In this document: in pieces, positions 6,267 through 16,137 of the stretch
Layout: the number at the start of each line of letters is the position of its first letter
How positions within the stretch are numbered: the stretch's first letter is position 1
DNA from: Mortierella sp. BCC40632
Lineage: Eukaryota; Mortierellomycota; Mortierellomycetes; Mortierellales; Mortierellaceae
Assembly (NCBI GenBank): GCA_011634665.1
Contig: WAEK01000007.1
Location: forward strand, 1,947,001 to 2,011,000
Direction of reading: 5' to 3'
Length of the DNA stretch: 64,000 nucleotides
Translations under genes and position numbers: made by a program
The notes under the pieces: model-generated
What the model was told of the DNA's origin: nothing
Seen by the model: only the letters and a program-made list of their open reading frames with translations
Database searches by the model: none

Positions 6267-6933
6267 TACGAATGTCGGGCTTTTTATGTGTGGTGGCGGC
6301 GATTCAGGAGCGCCGAAGGGCGTTTCTCTCTCTTCCTCAGGACCGATCAGTGGACCGACCAAAGAGGTGCATGTCCGCTGTAATAAGTAGAAAAGAGTCG
6401 TGGCAGAAAATATGTGCACAGGGAGAGAGAGAGAGAGAGCACAACAATAGGGAGACTCGACAAAACAGAGCGAGTGCGCTATGGTGTGGAAACACGTTGG
6501 TGGCCTGCAGTAGAGATTGGAGATTGGGCACTCTCTTTTTTTTGGCCTAGACTTTTTTTTGTAGCCGTGTCTCGATGTGCAAAGCGCTCGGGGCTTGTTC
6601 TTTCTCTTTTTTCCCCAATAGATGGACCCGTCTGGTGTAGTCTCCTGTTCGAGTGGTCTTTCCAGAGAGTCCTCCCAGGGAGTCTTTCTACACATCACTC
6701 CCTTGCCCCGCCCAACTTCTAGAGAACCACCGCGTTCAAGATTGTGATATCGCCAATTGATGCCACAGCCAGCCAGCCAGCCAGTGTGACGTCACTCCGT
6801 CTGGTGGGGGGGGCAAAATGGACTACGATTAACTAAAAAAGGTAAAAGGGCAACAGATTTATTTGCCCAATTGCCCTGACGATGCCATGATAGTGGAGGG
6901 TTGCCATCACTAGTCTGTTATTCTTAGTAAATA

Positions 6934-9810
6934 TCATTTATTACACTCTTGAAGTTGTTGCAGTAAAGTTTTAGAGGAATTCACTGCAGCCTGGAGGTCC
7001 TCCAAGCTACAGGTTTTTGGCTTTTTGTTTATCAACTTGGCAATCGAACACCCATTGCTAAAGAGTTCCTTTTCTACATCTTCAAAGACCCTCTTCCTCT
7101 GCTCCTTCCGTCGATATCTCTCTTCCTCTTCGTCCGTGGCTCTCAAGTATTCGAGCTGGGTGTAGGCCAGTGGGCTGTGTATGGCTAACTGGTCTCTGAG
7201 TGAATCATTTTTGATGCTGCTGATGCTGCTGATGCCGCTGATGCTGCTGTTGCTGTTGATACTGTCGTTTTCTTTGTCTATGCTATCGGATGACATAGGC
7301 GAAAGAAAGCGACTGAGCCATAGGTCGTGAAAAACACGCTCGACAAGAAAGAGGTGTTTGCACGGAAGGGGCTTGCGCCTGAAAAAGTCGGGGCATGAAC
7401 ATGAGACTAGCTGCCCGGATCTGGCAATTACAACAATAGTGTAAAGTTTATCTGGAGTGGTGGGGTCCAATGAATGTATGAAAATCTACCCGAGAAGCGG
7501 AAGAAAGATAGATAAAATCCATTATAAGTGACATTCGACTGAGCAAACGAATCCGGAATGGTTATCAACTGCCTCATGGTCATCAAACCATACTTGTAGA
7601 TGTCCATCATTGCAGGGTTGATCTTTGTTGAAGCTGATCTTGCGCTGTGCTTCGTCGAACGAAACTTCGTCTGCCTTCTGCTTCCTCACCTTATCCTCTT
7701 TCCTCCAAGGTATGGGCAGGAAGCCTCTCTTAGTCTTGAAGTATGCGAATCGAAACTCTCTATTGACTCGGCCCTGTAATAAATAAACAACTCGATCGAC
7801 GCGGAGATTCCGTTCACCATCAAGGTGGTAGCCCTTCAAACGAGCATGCCACGACTCTATCCAATTATTGGTTGTGACAACTTGCCCGTCCTAATTAAAT
7901 GAGACGAGTGTATTATTTAACTGGTGATAATCATGACGATCGACGTGGAAAGGAATTGAGATACACTTTTACCTCTCTTACCTCTCTGTGGAAAAATGCC
8001 CATCTCTCCAGCCTTCCCTTCTTGTCGAACCAGTTCTTCTGGATGTAATTAATCACTGGCGATGCAGCTGAATAAAGCTCTTTGAACCTAATCCAGAGTG
8101 TCTGCTGTAACTCGGGTGACCTGGCTCTGCGAACCTCATTCAAAAGTGGCGCGCATCTGTTTTTCCGCCCTTCCTGTCGAATAAGAGTGCAACATATGAG
8201 TATACGTCTAAGAATACTCTGTAGTTTCAGTTCAAAGAGAAGAGAGAGAGAGAAATGCCTACCGAGAACTTGAACAGCTGTTTCTCCCACAGCTGTCCGA
8301 CATGGAAATCGCAATAATAGATCTTTGACTCGGGGAAAACAGCCCCGATGGCGTGGGACTCGGCTTCTGCACAGTCCACCATGAATAAGAATCCGTTTTC
8401 AGAACACATTCGTTCTTTTAGCCATGCAGCCACCGGAATGATAGGATAGCTAATGGGTTTAAAAGCACAAATGTAAAAATACAAGTCCATTCATACATGT
8501 GGCACAGGTAACGATGCAGATGCACAGAAATAAAAATGGGGGAATCATACCGAGATTCAGACTTGCACGCCATGTAGGCGACAGGGGATTCCTTGATGGA
8601 TATCTTTGTCATTGACAAGTAGAGTAAACAAATATGCTGAGCCGTGGACATTGCTGCCCTCTTCGGTCGGTGTAATGTCCCTTATAGTCTTGTGAGTCGA
8701 ATCCATACAGTAGCAGCTGGAGTTTCCAGACATGACCTACATGGACATATTAAAAGACATTGATAGTTGGCACATGCATGACTGAGAAGCTCGAACGCAT
8801 GCTATCTGTAGTTTACCATCAGCTGAAAGCTCGTGCACCATCCATACGCAAATCCTGTCAGTGCTGCATCCTCAACGAACATGGTCTTGCCACCCCTTGT
8901 TTTCGATTTCTTTGAACCACAGTTTGACGCTGTTGGCAACGCACCTATCCTTCTGATATTCCATTCTTTTTTTCTCTTGGAGATAATTTGTCGAATGTAA
9001 CCAGGGTCAAAGAATAGGTTGCCAGAAACAATTCCTTTGGAGTGATCATGGGCCGCGTCCTCCATTCACATGGTACGTTTGAAGACATTAGACACAAAAC
9101 ACACTGTTCAGGAAATAGGACAAAAGCCAACACTCTTACCGCTTGAAGGCTCTGCTCATCAGGGGATGAGCCTGCTCGACGACAGAATACCAATCATAAC
9201 CCTTTTCCGCCAGACGCCGAACCCAGCTGCGTTCTATTTTTGACCAAGAGGCAGTTGTGCGCGATCATCATCATGATTGTGCCTCCATATTGTACCTGAC
9301 CACAACCTTGTCCTCCTCTCCAACAGGTTGTGCCATGAAGAAGACCTGTGCCCTGCAACGTTGACCCACTGATTCACGTGGGAGAGAGATATCTTTTTTT
9401 CTTGCGGTGGCGACGGCAGGCAAACGTGAGTCTCCAAGAGTACATATGGTCCTTGTGCCTGCAACCTTGTTCAGATGTTTTTAAATGGAAGTGGAGTGCT
9501 CGGATCGTCCTTTTGATTATAGAAGGTTGAGTACTGATTGGGTCTATGAACCCACATACCAGTTTGCCGCTCTTCCGCCCACCATTCACGAAATTCCGTC
9601 GATCTTAAAAGTGAATTCCTTGGTGCTAGTGTCGTTTGATGATAATTGTTGAGGTTTGATGTTGTTTCTGGGGTCGTAGTTGTGAGCAATGATAAGTTTA
9701 TCCTCCAATTTGAGACCAGACATTTTTGGAGCAGCCGATTGTGGGGAGTTGTTGCAGTAGGCTCACAGAAACGTGACAGAGGGCCAGGGATGAGGAAAAA
9801 GGCCATGCAA
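6934..9810 (-). pseudogene. Mutator-like (MULE) transposase gene with SWIM zinc finger, decayed
   Basis: Exon-like blocks read on the minus strand down to a stop at 6934. From the 5' side: a WW-containing block (about 9640-9490); a Cys/His block (9480-9380); a block ending AFKR|GTAAGAG (donor after 9140); a block with VKLWFKEIENKGW (about 8950); exon 8736-8551 with CMDSTHK (Asp at 8703); exon 8449-8263 with VDCAEAE (Asp at 8376) followed by the CDFHVGQ motif; exon 8173-7982; exon from 7890 with NNWIESWH (Glu at 7857). A C-terminal block with a SWIM finger (CSCPDFF, then CKHLF) follows. This is the DDE order of MULE transposases. The frame breaks near 9270 (a run of TGA codons), near 8610 and near 7450, so I call it a pseudogene. 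Exact boundaries at the 5' end are uncertain. Confidence 0.72.
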
Positions 9811-10229
9811 AACCAAGTAATGCTGGCGATGGTATGGTATTGACAGGCAAGCGGATAGGAGTGAGTGTAGATGTGTATGTGGAGTGGCGCGTGTGTATGT
9901 GTCTGTTTGAGGGAGATAAGACTGCGGAAGAGAAGGGGAGGATGAGAGGGAGCAAAAAAGCGGAAAAGAGGAAAAATATTGCACGTACCACCTCAACCCA
10001 CATGTTCATAGAATCCACTGCCCTTTCTCTGCCGAACTGATGCGGGGAAGAGATGCCGGTATTGCATCTCCTCCTCCGCATTTTCCTTTCTTTCCATGAC
10101 AGCCCAATGCCGGCTGCAGGTCGCACCAGTATAGAACCTCCTCTTCCCGCTTCAATCTAAGCCACATATTCTTTAAGAACGCGTTCTGTTTCGCGTTTGA
10201 TTTTGATTGCTTCACCTCATCTCCCCGCC

Positions 10230-10598
10230 ATGGGCGTGAAACGCGCGTGGCAACTACCAGGCAAGAAGGGGTTTTTTCCAAACCCACAACACACAATCTC
10301 GTCAACCGGCGTCATCCGCGTTGATGTCTGCTCGACCCACAACGTCCTGATAAAAATCATTTATGAGAACGCCACAGACTTAAATGCTGCACATGCCAAG
10401 CTCGAATGGTGGCTCACAAGACTGGGGAGCAAGGATCAGCTGCGTTTCTATGTTGATGGTGAACCGGCACAAGAAAAGATGGATGTTCATGCCAGTCGCC
10501 GTCGACACCGTCAACAATCTCTATCGAGGGCTGCCGCTGCCATTTCAATCCTCGAATCACGTCTCATTAAAAGGCTCGGATTCGCAAGCACCATATAA
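10230..10598 (+). other. XPG-N-like domain segment of the decayed two-nuclease gene
   Basis: First open segment, 123 codons from ATG 10230. It corresponds to the FEN1/XPG N-region: Met-Gly-Val start, Asp32 in a short hydrophobic strand (FEN1 Asp34 position), and Asp76 in YVDGEP followed by basic residues (FEN1 Asp86 in VFDGKP). Near 10575 the frame shifts by one base, after which the next frame reads IRKHH and later EQRRSFVEYIHEQ up to about 10680. That is followed by another single-base shift into the XPG-I segment. The ATG at 10197 is in frame, but 10230 is preferred because the family starts with Met-Gly. Confidence 0.65.
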
Positions 10599-10673
10599 GC
10601 AACGCACGCAAATTCCCTGCGTCAGTCATTTATTGGCCATTGGAGCAGCGCCGGAGTTTTGTAGAGTACATAC

Positions 10674-11081
10674 ATGAGCAATAAGGGCCATAACATCGTG
10701 TTGTGCGTAACCGAGGCAGACACGCTCATCGCAGCAGAATGCCAACCACAAGATGCAGTTGTATCCTGCGATAGTGATCTCCTGTTTTACAAGACCATTC
10801 GCGTTGTTTGGCGTCCTATCGGGTCATACAAAGCACGCCGCTTTGTCCCGTACGAGAAAGGTGCCCTTCTCGAGGCACTCGAATTGTCTCCAAGCCAGAT
10901 GACCGCTCTTGCTGTATTAAGCGGCAATGATTACGTCCCAAATATTCCCTACCTTGGACTTATGACCAATTACAAGATAATCAAGTCTTTGGAAGGTGGT
11001 AAGAAGGCAGGCGATTTTGATATTGACCTACTTGTTCTTAGTGCTCTGACAGCTAATATTGTCTCTACCGTCCGTCTTTAG
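10674..11081 (+). other. XPG-I-like domain segment and its intron
   Basis: Contains the second set of FEN1-type metal ligands: Glu and Asp in TEAD, two Asp in CDSD, and Asp in SGNDY, followed by a helix-hairpin-like stretch (YLGLMTNYKIIKSL). The coding part ends at 10998; GTAAGAAG begins an 83-base intron with GCTAAT branch-like and TTTAG acceptor signals ending at 11081. The next exon continues in phase as DERSIVQQYLTRPE and then loses frame in an A5 run near 11120. Confidence 0.65.
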
Positions 11082-12699
11082 ATGAGAGAAGTATTGTCCA
11101 GCAGTACCTTACTCGCCCAGAAGTAAAAAGCGACGCACGGACAAAGGGTGCGGAGATTGGACTGTTGAGACTTATAACAATGCTCTCAAAGTCTTCGTGG
11201 AGATGAAACAGGACAGAGTATCAGACACAGCCTTTCCGTCCTCTTCGGCTACGAACAGCCCATCACCTTCGTATGCTACTCTATGCCAGCGGTTGGATCG
11301 ATTCCTGGTTGAGTTTATGGCGTCCAAGAAGAAAGCGTATGAAGAACGCGTGGCCAAGAGGTATCAGGCGCCCGTCCTCGCATTTAACAGGCCTTGGCTA
11401 CAAATCAAAACGATTACTAGTGAACACTAACCGTCTCAATGTTTCTACACCTTACGTATTTGCTGTCAACAGAGCGGTGCGTGATAAACAGTCGAGAACC
11501 GGAGGAGCAGAACCCGAGCAAGCTAACATCTTTTTACGACTGACCAGCCGAATCCTGCCAAAACCATCAATTTCGACCAAGATTCAGCCCCAAGGTCCGG
11601 TATGAACCTATGAAAGAACATCCTGCCCCCCTGCGATCTCCAAAGAATACCAACTAAAAGCCATGGAAGCAGGCACCTGAGAAGCCGTCGGTGGGGACAC
11701 ATACGCCAAAACCCAACAAAACGAAGCCTGCGGACATCAAAGCCGAGATCAAAAAGAGAATGACAGCTTTGGGCGTAAGCAAATTTTAAACGCCCTATCG
11801 TTCGAGCACCCAATCGTATGTCTGGATCTTGGCCGCCTGGCCCCTAGTATTCATGCCGCCGTCAATGACGATGGGGCCGCCAAGGAAGTCATCGAGTGCA
11901 TCCGTGGAGCTGTCCGCGCTGCGTGGAGTTGTAAACGGCGCTGTCAGATTTTGATTGGTCTATATCTGGAGTCTGTTTTCTATCCTCGGCCACACCCTGG
12001 CGCCCCTCGACCTGCGGCACCAGTGACAAGCATCACTCCACAAGATCGTGAGATCCTTGAAAACTTGTGCCCTTCTCTAACATCCAAGGAGATAGCTGAC
12101 GACGACCCCGTCAGCTCTATAGGGGATGGTGAAGACGATCCATCTAATGTGCGCTTTCTCCATTCTTTCATCAGCTTTCTGTACTCCGGCAACCCGCCTC
12201 GTGAAAGGAAAATCTTAGTATCCGGCAATCCGCCAGATACTAAGAAAAAAATTGGAACAGTCGTCAACTCCTTCATTAATCGACTGGAAGAGTTGGGCCA
12301 TTTAGACACATCGAACCTCACCAACGCAGTCATGATCCAGAATGTCAAGGAGTACACACCAACGCTGTTGGTCCGTTCGGTAGCTTCACAGCTTTCGGTA
12401 GAGCTCATGCGACACTATAGGCAAGGAACGAAAAAGCTGTTGGAAATGGTAATACGCCCGTCAATGTTAGTTATTTCCAATTTTGTCAAAATGGAGACAA
12501 ACAATTCAAAGTTAAATAATCGTTTTTCTGTATATGTCACAATAGATCCGAAAGATGATCAGAAAGGGCCGATTGCCAAACAATCAAGCAATCGATTTGT
12601 CCTCTAACGAGCCAGCGATCCAGATCTTTTGTACGAGCAAATGCTACGGCTGGCCGGCCTTGGCGACTCTCACCGCTGTCGCCAGAAGAGCATGGATAC

Positions 12700-13350
12700 A
12701 TGACGTTTACCGAGCTAGAGCTGGCCGCATTTCTACACAAGAGGAAAACATTGCATCCCATCCTGGCGAGGATTATTGGATCTGAGGACCGACAGAGAGA
12801 TCTAACTCAGACAGAGCTGACTCGTGACTGGATCCCACACCAGACGCCAGGCCTGTTCATCCAGCACATCATAGCTCCTGTGGACCCCAAGACTTTGACT
12901 GGTGATCGTGTTCGCGGTCGTGAGAAGAAGGAAGCCGGTGTCTCTGCCGCAGTCAAGATTGTTGATCCAGATGACATCCGGGACCACATCAATGATCTTC
13001 GCCGAGACGGATTTGACCCAACAGCTTACGAAAAGAGGGGATATTTCCTGCGTGGCTCCATAAAAACTGATGGATACAGCCTCCAGTTGCTGGCATATAA
13101 ATTACGTGAGCTCAACTCGGTCAAGTTCAAGCGTTACAAGACCGAGGTTCTACCCGACCGTCTCCTCTCAACTACAGCCGGCACAAGCGACCATCTCACC
13201 GAGGTGCATAATGTCTTCAAGTCGACTGCTGATGTCGAGCGTTTGCTTGGGTGCACTCCAGGCGAAACAGATAGTGTGTCGTACCTAGGAATAGATCTGG
13301 GCCAGGCCTTTGTGGTAGGGGGCGAGTGCGATTTCTCCCGGAGGGTATGA
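12700..13350 (+). other. Pre-RuvC and RuvC-I segment of the two-nuclease gene
   Basis: An open stretch of 216 codons, the best preserved internal part. It reads a charged helical region (FTELELAAFLHKRK), a basic/aromatic region (GYFLRGSIKTDGYSLQLLAYKLRELNSVK has no break), then YLGIDLGQAFVVG, a canonical RuvC-I strand with the catalytic Asp at 13294. The following Arg/Gly/Lys-rich stretch loses frame at about 13350. That point could be a GTATGA...GATAG intron (13345-13444) or a frameshift; I cannot decide from one copy. Confidence 0.6.
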
Positions 13351-13712
13351 CCATCCGAGTCGGTAAGCGACGGCGACACCGGCAAAAAGAAACGAGGCAG
13401 CCGGGGCCGGCGCCCGAGAGGTAGCGGCAAGGGAAGGAAGATAGCCAGCCGGGAGGGCCGTGAGGCGGTACATCAATCTCGCAGCCAATCAAAAGGCCGT
13501 TGCGCGACCAACTCTCGCTCACAGAACCTGGCTTGAAAATCAAAAGTCGGCCGGCCTGACGCGCCCCCCCTCCAAACCCGAGTCATTAGTTGTACCGACC
13601 GTCAGCACAGACGCAACGACTTCATTGACACTTCAGTCTTCCACCTCTTGTGTCAGTCCAACGGTGTCGACCTCCTTTCGATTAGCTTGATCGAATCATC
13701 GCTTACTCCTCT

Positions 13713-14552
13713 GTGTGGTCCAGATGCCGACTTTTCCCACATGTGCAGCAGCGACAAGCGAACAAAGACCACCTGGACACGTTTTACAATGGCCGTCAAT
13801 TCAAAGTCAAGAAGTACACGCAGATGGCAAAAAGGGCAAGGAAGAAGGAGTTTTGTCAGCTTGCAGACTCGCTACTGCGCATGGTTGGCGGTTCTTTGGG
13901 CGAAAGGAGGAAAGAGAATGCCAAGGTTGTCATTGGCATTGGCATGGGCCAATTCACCTCTACTTCCCGACTGACATCCTTACATGGATCATTCGAGGCA
14001 TTTTTCGTTCAGAAGGTAACATTTTATTGTAAGTTGCAGTGATTTCTTTCCAATCCTGCTACTGATAGCTGTTGGATTGACTCTCTCTCCCCTCTTTCAA
14101 TGGTATAGGTTCGAGCGCTCGGCTATGTCTTGGTTGGAATTAACGAGTTTTATACCTCAAAAAAGTGCCCAACATGCGAACAATTTGTCGGTGAGGCGGG
14201 CAGTATGAGACGCCTGTACTGTTATCGATGCCATAAGTTCCTCCACAGGGACATAATGGCAGCACACAATATGTGCACCGTCCTCAAGAGGCATGTGGAA
14301 CAACAAAAACGACCACTGTATTTGCAACCTGTAGATGCTGAAGGCAATTATCCATGGCTTGATAAATCCAGCGACTCTGACCCAACTCCAGACAGTCGTG
14401 GAGGTGGTGGTAGCAAGCGCCAGGCAAAGGAGATCGGCGAAGCCGATCAGGAGAAGAGTAGCAAGCGGAACAAGGCAACCAATGTCAAGAAAAAGTCGTC
14501 CAACACCACGAGTTCCAAGACAACAGCAACTGAGCAAGGGTTGGCAACGTAA
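13713..14552 (+). other. RuvC-II/III and zinc-ribbon exons of the two-nuclease gene
   Basis: Two exons joined in phase 0 across intron 14016-14108 (GTAACA...GTATAG, 93 bases). Exon a ends LHGSFEAFFVQK; exon b starts VRALGYVLVGINEFYTSKKCPTC. The zinc ribbon has cysteines at 14166, 14175, 14220 and 14229, and the RuvC-III Asp is in HRDIMAAHN. The last 70 residues are Lys/Ser/Thr-rich. The pattern TSKKCPxC...CxxC..HRDxxAAHN is that of TnpB/Fanzor C-termini (OrfB zinc-ribbon family). Confidence 0.7.
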
Positions 14553-14605
14553 CAAGCAGTATGCAGATTGATAGCTAGATAGCATTTATTTTTTTTTTAC
14601 CTTGG

Positions 14606-14621
14606 GGTGTTCGTCAACACC
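14606..14621. other. Hairpin 54 bases after the RuvC ORF stop
   Basis: GGTGTT, a four-base CGTC loop, then AACACC: a perfect six-pair stem just after a T10 run. It could be a transcript 3'-end hairpin or part of an element end. No terminal inverted repeat or target duplication was found to confirm an element boundary. Confidence 0.3.
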
Positions 14622-14832
14622 TTTGTCTACTATTGAGTAGATCTTGATTGCTGCGCAGGCCGAGCGCGTCTCCATCCGGTGACGTAATCGTAGTCCGATG
14701 CGCGGCCGTCCGTCTGGTCTGTCGCGGGCAGTGGCTTGGAAGTTCGGGATTCCTGGCAACTATTGCCATGGGGCATGATCCGAACAGGGCTGCTCGTTCC
14801 ATCATCAGTTCTTACTCGACCATCACTTCATC

Positions 14833-16137
14833 ATGTTGCGCGCCACACGACCCATGGCTCGCGTCCTTGCGGCCTCCAACAGCAGGGCTTCATTGTCTGC
14901 AGCATCCTTGACCCGACCCATCAACCAGGTCCGCGCTGCCCACAGCATCCACAACCGCAACGATCCTGCTATCCCCGGCGATGCCACCGGCTTCCTTCCC
15001 GGCGACAAGATCACTGGCGAAACCCAGATTGGCGACTACCCTAACCTGCCCATGTACAACCAGCAGTGGCGCAGTGGATTCGAGTCTGCAGGATACTGGG
15101 ATAAGCAGGACCGCCGTAACTTTGGTGAAACTGTACGCTACCTCAGTCCCTTTTTTTACACTTTTTTTTTTATCATTTCTGTTTTCTCTCCTTTCCTTCC
15201 CGACATAATTCCACTTCCGATGCGCGGAATGTCGCATGCTAGTTGGCACAACCCAATCCCAGGATAAACAAAAGAAGAGACAGGAGTCTTCAATTCCAAA
15301 GGATGGAGCCTGTCTAGTTTCTCGCGATACACAACTATGCTCCAAAATTACGCGAAATACAGAGCGTAAATTTCTGCAGGGAGATAAAAAAAACCTACCC
15401 CAAAAAGCAATGGCGCCAGGGTTCGGGATTCTGGTACCAAAGGGCGCAGTGGACTCGATTCACATTAGAGCAGCGGGACAGGAGCGCTCCTCTTTGTGTA
15501 GTCACTATGGTTGTTTCGATGGCATCAAAATGAGGCCAGTTTCATTGGTCAATTGCACGATGCTTTCCGATCAAACCCCTTCTTCCAACATTGAGAAATA
15601 AGCGAGCGTTGGAACATGAAGACCACTGTCCGAATTTATCTGCTTTGCTCGCTTTGGCATCGATTGGATCGGGGATCAAAAAGGCGCAGGTTCTGGACAA
15701 CAAAATGCACGGTTGGGTTCAACGCTTTCCAATTCTGCACACCGCCATGTTTCTTGGGAGGCAGGCGGTCTACTTTTGTTTCTTTCCTATTTTCCGATCT
15801 CCTATCTGCATTCTTTGTTCATGCAGGAGGATAAATTTGTCACGATACTGACGCGACAACGCTCTTTTTTTTTTTTATCTGATAGGTCGCTGAGGAAGAC
15901 GAAGTCTTGAACATCTGGTCTCCCGATGTCTGGGCCTTCCCTACTTCCGTGGGTGTGAAGGCCTTGTTGGCTGCTGCTGCCGCTTTCTTCGGCTTTGGAT
16001 ATATGCTCTCAGAGACCAGACCCGAGCCCCACTTTGAGCGTCGCTCGTACCCCTATGATGGACTTGCCGAGGCTTTGGGTGTTGATGCCTCGGATGAGGT
16101 CATGGTCGCCAAGAGAGCAGCTCGCGCTTCTGCTTAG
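14833..16137 (+). CDS. NADH dehydrogenase (complex I) subunit NDUFB8/ASHI-like
   Basis: Model: exon 1 14833-15132, intron 15133-15885, exon 2 15886-16137; 183 residues. The first 35 residues are Arg/Ser/Ala-rich without acids, a mitochondrial presequence. The body shows the NDUFB8 pattern: GDYPNLP, a WDKQDRRNFGE stretch at the exon junction, then EEDEVLNIWSPD. A single membrane helix follows at about residues 117-137, then a short charged tail. It is an accessory subunit of the membrane arm of respiratory complex I in the inner mitochondrial membrane. The 753-base intron is about ten times longer than most introns here; it has a T12 run just before its acceptor and no convincing internal gene. 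A 36-base A run lies about 50 bases beyond the stop. Confidence 0.88.

Follow-up and report, generated by a model that had tools for sequence, protein, structure and literature searches.

The fusion gene and its setting

In a 64,000-nucleotide stretch of the genome of Mortierella sp. BCC40632 (assembly GCA_011634665.1, contig WAEK01000007.1, positions 1,947,001 to 2,011,000), hereafter called the window, a gene was found in which a nuclease of the FEN1/EXO1/XPG type is joined to a Fanzor1. The assembly comprises 49.9 Mb in 62 contigs, and the window lies on contig 7. The protein begins with a FEN1/EXO1/XPG-fold nuclease (approximately residues 1-312), which a flexible linker connects to a complete Fanzor1 with REC, WED, RuvC and TNB parts. 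It is encoded by an accessory nuclease gene carried on a DNA transposon of the MULE type, and the window copy of this gene is frame-disrupted (Table 1). The original prediction had described one plus-strand gene-like stretch at 10230-14552. The gene and the order of its halves, domains and residues were confirmed, but it does not form a single open stretch, and the true unit is larger, namely the transposon at 6806-14710.

Table 1. Features of the transposon and the fusion gene in the window.
Feature	Position	Strand	Basis
Whole MULE-type transposon, 7905 bp, containing the fusion gene	6806..14710		ends common to several copies
Target motif TGACGT, 5 bases before the duplication, in a position like that of a target-adjacent motif (TAM)	6787..6792	+	same spacing in 5 insertions, two element types
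Left target-site duplication CGTCTGGT	6798..6805		flank comparison
Right target-site duplication CGTCTGGT	14711..14718		flank comparison
Left terminal repeat, short and imperfect; GGACTACGATTA in common with the right end	6806..6831	+	end comparison
Right terminal repeat, short and imperfect	14685..14710	-	end comparison
Divergent, frame-disrupted putative MULE-type transposase with MULE and SWIM-like pieces	6934..9065	-	Pfam below cut-off; homologous pieces near other family genes
FEN1/EXO1/XPG-type PIN nuclease half, every metal-ligand position present	10230..11078	+	sequence reading, Pfam, profiles
Middle part of the gene, REC-like and belonging to the Fanzor half	11681..12604	+	profiles; corresponding region alignable with SpuFz for the most part
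Fanzor1 RuvC part and C4 zinc ribbon (RuvC-I D 13294, RuvC-II E 14145, RuvC-III D 14250)	12559..14552	+	Pfam, profiles, structure
Candidate omega-RNA scaffold, three predicted stem-loops with GGTGACGTAAT in the third; a guide would begin within or beyond the duplication	14569..14710	+	sequence and folding

Read from the sequence, the acidic codons stand exactly where they had been predicted: GAT 10323, GAT 10455, GAG 10713, GAC 10719, GAT 10770, GAT 10776 and GAT 10929 in the nuclease half, and GAT 13294, GAG 14145 and GAC 14250 in the Fanzor half. The original prediction had named acids lying outside the PIN/XPG and RuvC sites as a case that would contradict it; instead, both folds are predicted and the listed acids are conserved. 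The predicted structures show a FEN1/EXO1-type PIN fold for the N-terminal half and the REC-WED-RuvC-TNB fold of Fanzor1 for the C-terminal half. Among the alignment rows with a letter at the respective position, the seven acidic metal ligands, placed by FEN1 residue numbering, are kept in 13/14, 19/19, 20/20, 21/21 (Asp for Glu), 19/21, 21/21 and 22/23. The RuvC triad is kept in 26/26 (RuvC-I D), 25/26 (RuvC-II E) and 25/26 rows (RuvC-III D). The Fanzor1 motif D-X(125-275)-[TS][TS]XX-C4-X(5-50)-RD (PMC3627910; this and the other papers cited were available in part, and statements taken from them refer to those parts) is present in protein P0010 as D847, T1064-S1065, C1068/1071/1087/1090 and R1096-D1097. 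By sequence and predicted fold, the protein belongs both to Fanzor1 and to the FEN1/EXO1/XPG nucleases, and both nuclease activities are predicted.

The pieces of the interrupted gene were searched separately. With Pfam, 10665-11078 matched XPG_I (E 5.2e-5), slightly below the cut-off, and 14109-14549 matched Cas12f1-like_TNB, the Cas12f1-like/TnpB zinc-ribbon family (E 2e-10, 41.1 bits), above the cut-off of 26.3. Family profiles made from related proteins, with the window sequence excluded, recognised the PIN pieces with E values of 7e-24 and 1e-46, the middle with 6e-69 and the Fanzor pieces with 2e-52, 1e-38 and 5e-42. These matches, together with the fused family members described below, exclude a chance origin of the pattern. 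The PIN half of the related locus L031 (3716-4531) matched Pox_G5 below the cut-off (E 3.3e-4, 20.2 bits), with XPG_I weaker at 15.0 bits. An Rfam scan of the window gave no match at the gathering threshold, and a tRNA search of the window found none.

The reading frame is interrupted by stops or frame changes near 10598, 11081, 11430, 12607 and 13350. Part of these gaps are probably introns, as in locus L037, for which an uninterrupted 1350-aa gene model with five introns of 64-111 bases each was obtained; other breaks may be base-calling indels. Compared to the copy at C2 over 5237 columns, the window (9487-14710) showed 16 mismatches and 29 gap events (20 single-base, 17 in homopolymers). 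The elements are of two types, A, which includes the window copy, and B, and further near-identical pairs showed 9 mismatches and 35 gap events (type-B L040-L041) or 16 and 40 (L048-L049). Because this pattern resembles long-read base-calling errors, and suggests that repeats are unpolished in the assembly, the broken frame of the window may be partly an assembly artefact.

Relatives and selection

The genome contains 48 TNB matches. In 20 stretches, each spanning about 10 kb and surrounding some of these matches, PIN, XPG_I, middle, RuvC and TNB often follow one another in this order on one strand, with a protein identity to the window of mostly 23-60%, plus near-identical copies. With the window, these make 21 sources, among which L039-L041 overlap partly in the elements they contain. 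In 14 of the 21, the family profiles matched the two end halves on the same strand; matches were weaker in a fifteenth (L043), and the N-terminal half had no match on that strand in 6. Domain borders are crossed by single open stretches at L034 (4683-5867, end of the PIN profile and middle domain) and at L047 (5025-7304, middle and Fanzor profiles). A second PIN-half match at L035 (1314-1994, minus strand, E 3.1e-6) lies on the opposite strand, with no Fanzor half detected beside it in that stretch.

A query with the L037 protein returned 47 database proteins, all named after Mortierella-type fungi, and for three of them (P0019, P0022 and P0024) the precomputed Pfam annotation contains XPG_I and TNB in the same protein. 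The profile of the C-terminal half, which was scored against only the 7989 candidates with most words in common, returned 66 proteins; 59 have names, all of Mortierella-type genera, and 7 are nameless. Within the reach of these searches, the family is restricted to Mortierella-type fungi, whose named genera presumably belong to one family. Altogether, 105 proteins were retrieved, of which 52 match both end profiles, 44 the C-terminal one only (many of them 'partial' records), 3 the N-terminal one only and 6 the middle only. The profiles were built from 26 of the 105, and these counts describe the family and are no independent test of it. Halves that always occur as separate genes, a second case named as refuting by the original prediction, were thus not what was found, and its mention of similar proteins in Mortierella-type genomes is borne out. 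Since the distances of the two halves correlate across 20 proteins (r 0.725, 0 of 5000 permutations), a single ancestral fusion appears likelier than repeated fusions.

The ratio of nonsynonymous to synonymous substitution rates (dN/dS) was computed with codons near indels dropped. Among 11 pairs, 3 were near-identical and without signal, 6 gave values for both halves and 2 for the Fanzor half only. The PIN and Fanzor values were 0.21 and 0.12 for L047-L049 (181 and 342 codons), 0.18 and 0.12 for L047-L048 and 0.16 and 0.08 for L047-L046, these three pairs not being mutually independent. L033-L034 gave 0.33 and 0.13 with few changes, the window and L050 gave 0.41 and 0.39 (67 PIN codons), and L050-L039 gave 0.63 and 0.30 (71 PIN codons). 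For the Fanzor half only, 0.32 (L034-L028) and 0.58 (L042-L044) were determined.

Ends, duplications and transposase

The right end at 14710 is common to 5 copies, one of which matches two bases more, and the left end, at 6805-6807, is common to 4. Both type-A and type-B elements are transposons with defined ends, as expected for Fanzor1. MULE/Mutator elements make target duplications of approximately 8-10 bp, and duplications of 8 bp flank the type-A elements at C7 (the window copy), C11 (CGCGCCTT) and C4 (GAGCGTCT) as well as the type-B element at C3 (CCACTACC). The duplication of the type-A element at C2 is an A-run of uncertain length, and at L037 the 8-mer after the presumed right end was not recovered upstream. 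The putative terminal inverted repeat of type A comprises 12 identical bases, 14 bases inside both ends, with no longer inverted copy; the terminal 22 bases of the right end have no other copy within the window at up to 3 mismatches.

Both Pfam scores of the putative transposase are below the cut-off (MULE E 7.8e-4, 20.3 bits, cut-off 27.6; SWIM E 0.029), and its frames are broken. In L031, in L037 and in the type-B elements of L039-L041 and L050, family genes are preceded by MULE-type homologues on the other strand; at L045, MULE pieces lie on the same strand as TNB. Two transposon copies contain further insertions. At C2 and C15 (L039-L041, L050, L057), type-A and type-B elements stand in tandem with one common duplication, as expected from a second insertion into the same site. 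A complex I gene resembling NDUFB8 (window 14711-15267; Pfam E 6.6e-4, 20.1 bits, slightly below the cut-off of 21) has its start codon at 14833, and the window transposon lies 115 bp ahead of this codon. The type-B element at C4 (L056) lies about 115 bp before an ATG as well; the reading there resembles a mitochondrial presequence by eye and has no Pfam match.

The target motif

TGACGT was found exactly 5 bases before the left duplication in five insertions, of type A at C7, C11 and C4 and of type B at C3 and C1; at C1 the left flank alone was read and the duplication inferred. The mirror motif is absent from the four right flanks read for these insertions. The chance of a fixed hexamer at five sites, allowing any hexamer and 30 offsets, is about 1e-13, the sites not being independent if a single family of repeats or promoters is their source. 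At C11, the site lies inside the right end belonging to a different member of the nuclease gene family and is also the after-gene motif of L005/L035, so that it is counted twice. Deviating sites are the type-A element at C2 with an imperfect motif, the type-B element at C4 with TGACAT and no duplication, and the type-B element at C25, whose left end is lost. A scan of 23 oriented places gave 3 matches at spacing 5, 2 each at 3 and 4 and one each at 6, 9 and 18, and no motif at the other fourteen spacings within 0-20. Of the matches at spacing 5, C7 and C3 are real and L048 is chance-like; most of the locus stretches end short of the left end.

Since SpuFz1 elements have a conserved CA before the left repeat and CATA as TAM (PMC10432273), the left-side motif is what the TAM of a Fanzor would look like. 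A preference of the transposase or of a host factor for TGACGT is as likely, and the motif is only suggestive of RNA-guided cleavage beside a TAM. Outside the transposons, a promoter-like module of approximately TTCGGTGACGTAATTAnnGCGTCCATTGTC, combining a CRE-like site with an inverted CCAAT box, recurs at L060, L065-L069, L071-L073, L075 and others of L058-L077. Targeting of host promoters by the transposase or by a bZIP-type host factor, and not by the Fanzor, would agree with these free copies of the motif, the fit of the C4 type-A insertion site to the module and the position of the window element before the NDUFB8-like start codon. Paired transposase ends alone do not predict the asymmetry, with the motif on the left in all five insertions. 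We give this origin of the motif slightly less than an even chance, and it is compatible with the explanation preferred below.

The right end as candidate omega-RNA

The right end of the window element folds into three stems, the last of them formed from the terminal repeat (z -2.2, matched by 5 of 200 shuffles). The predicted fold resembles the layout of Fanzor1 right-end RNA (reRNA), which has three stems and incorporates both the terminal repeat and the duplication (PMC10711439). The right end would be transcribed as omega-RNA, with the flank beyond the end as guide. In the first stem, 93.3% of the cells are paired compared to a shuffled mean of 80.4, which 0 of 500 shuffles reach. Two-sided changes occur in 3 of its 5 pairs (reached by 20 of 500 shuffles) and the number of pair types is reached by 393 of 500, with relatedness of the sequences inflating such covariation counts. 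Alignment A2 comprises 10 of 11 sequences, L008, with the motif unusually near the gene, being omitted. The loop hairpin was better than dinucleotide shuffles in 7 of 11 sequences (matched by no more than 10 of 200), and in 3 of 11 the apical loop is strictly GTGA. Rfam gave no match for ten right-end loci at E up to 0.1.

CGGTGACGTAAT or a near variant follows the TNB match by 46-286 bases in 12 of 23 rows; two of the 23 represent the same type B, and the row of L005 coincides with the C11 target site. Genome-wide there are 35 CGGTGACGTAATT sites, compared to 3 for the reversed control, and at 12 of the 35 a TNB match precedes the site on the same strand by no more than about 450 bases. Among the remaining 23 sites, 20 were read. 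About a dozen of the 20 contain the promoter-like module; a clear resemblance to a right end was seen in L070 (80 bits), and by eye L064 (25 bits) and L058 (22) also end like type B, whereas L062 scores 22 without that ending. L058, L064 and L070 are right-end-like without a nearby TNB match and could be 'ghost' loci or decayed copies. The right end of the transposon, which also carries CGGTGACGTAAT, might replace the promoter element separated by the insertion.

Proposed mechanism and alternatives

The observations are best explained by an accessory fusion nuclease of a MULE-type transposon that combines guided cutting with end processing by the PIN half, a reading that we regard as about evenly poised between right and wrong. 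The omega-RNA would come from the right end, with the flank beyond it as guide. The Fanzor half would find a matching empty site, on an excised donor or a sister or allelic locus, beside a TGACGT-type motif, open an R-loop and cut. The fused PIN nuclease could then act on the R-loop junction or on 5' ends, as FEN1, XPG and EXO1 do, and flap trimming or resection would lead to repair of the break by copying the transposon in. The analysis establishes an ancient and conserved fusion of two nucleases, with conserved active sites, inside a MULE-type transposon; guidance by RNA, the role of the motif as TAM and a joint action of the PIN half on R-loops or on cut ends are what we infer here. The target cutting and flap processing suggested by the original prediction would fit. 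In a more specific form, which we consider doubtful, a two-nuclease RNA-guided enzyme would cut the R-loop beside TGACGT, its FEN1/EXO1 half would process the displaced 5' strand, and repair would be steered to transposon copying; the MULE host element would thereby insert in one direction and with constant spacing to promoter-type TGACGT sites, and would stack in tandem at the same site.

Several observations weigh against this explanation. The motif is explained equally by a preference of the MULE or a host factor, its 5-base distance to the duplication is unlike the short TAMs of SpuFz1 and others (PMC10432273), and it is missing after the gene in 11 of 23 rows. Covariation was found for just one of the three putative stems, with mixed controls, and most single stems of the right end do not exceed mononucleotide shuffles in strength (they did in 1 of 10). 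XPG_I scores below the Pfam cut-off in the window (24.0 versus 24.9 bits) and at 15-20 bits in two members from the same genome. The placement of the halves relative to each other is not confident (predicted template modelling score, pTM, 0.42; predicted local distance difference test score, pLDDT, of the linker near 40), and constraint is weak in some pairs (dN/dS up to 0.63 for PIN and 0.58 for Fanzor).

Among the alternatives, the PIN half could serve the MULE transposase at flaps, gaps or hairpins of transposition intermediates, with targeting or retention supplied by the Fanzor half. The opposite-strand MULE-type homologues upstream of divergent family genes and the 8-bp duplications, as products of a transposase, agree with this, but the arrangement varies (L045), a transposition cofactor needs no fusion to Fanzor, and no such domain is reported for the Fanzor1s that MuDR-like elements carry in other fungi (PMC3627910); we regard this role as unlikely. 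The right end, with its stems adjoining the element end, would suit a PIN half that trims the guide RNA or merely binds structured nucleic acid. PIN-fold enzymes include ribonucleases; however, the fold and the full set of metal sites best match the DNA nucleases EXO1, FEN1 and XPG, and we regard this role as improbable. A reduction or loss of the RNA-guided function, leaving a DNA-binding regulator or transposition cofactor, would be in line with the decayed look of many copies (stops inside 14 of 48 TNB matches) and with known TnpB-derived repressors. The nearly invariant RuvC triad and Fanzor dN/dS values of 0.08-0.58 argue for kept catalysis, and such a loss seems improbable. That two adjacent genes or a jumbled pseudogene were mistaken for a single gene, as the lack of a single open frame in the window copy might indicate, is already contradicted by the L037 model, the 52 fused predicted proteins, the open stretches of L034 and L047 across domain borders and the congruent distances of the halves; this mis-joining was rejected as highly implausible.

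RNA-guided nucleases depend on the host for processing the ends that result from their cuts. A flap/exonuclease joined to a Fanzor, with both active sites kept over wide divergence, suggests that end processing helps such elements persist, and nuclease-coupled editors would have a natural precedent in the fusion. Through the left-side TGACGT insertion rule, the connection of TAM, transposase and promoter targeting becomes testable in eukaryotes.

Comparison with known systems

TnpB of IS200/605 and IS607 is an RNA-guided nuclease that promotes transposon retention; unlike the present system it is bacterial and small, works with other transposases and has no extra nuclease. In the literature searched, whose coverage is incomplete and leaves absence from print unestablished, no description of a Fanzor-FEN1/XPG fusion was found, nor any paper on Fanzor with Mortierella or MULE, TnpB with Mortierell-, or Mortierella Mutator elements. 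In the available parts of PMC10432273, PMC10711439, PMC3627910, PMC11423790 and PMC12719977 no such fusion is described; in those of PMC12719977 the words Fanzor and FEN1, and TnpB, flap endonuclease and fusion, co-occur in unrelated contexts. The additions that these parts do mention are an FRI insertion of about 100 aa in PpFz1, which binds cyclophilin (PMC11423790), and an N-terminal helix-turn-helix in some TnpB and Fanzor2 (PMC3627910).

The MuDR-like elements ROr-4, PBl-3 and MCi-4 of Rhizopus, Phycomyces and Mucor are likewise Mutator-type transposons with a Fanzor1, but are reported without MuDR transposase and with 9-bp duplications (PMC3627910), in contrast to the MULE-type pieces, the 8-bp duplications and the additional XPG-type half found here. 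Compared to FEN1, EXO1 and XPG (RAD2), the Mortierella-type family has an Asp at the position of FEN1 E160, and its nuclease is transposon-borne and joined to an RNA-guided nuclease. With the Fanzor1s SpuFz1, PpFz1 and GtFz1 it has in common the C-terminal fold, the D...[TS][TS]xxC4...RD motif, the transposon setting, a predicted RNA-like structure at the right end and a motif beside the left end (PMC10432273, PMC3627910); unlike these, the Mortierella-type protein adds a whole FEN1/EXO1-type nuclease.

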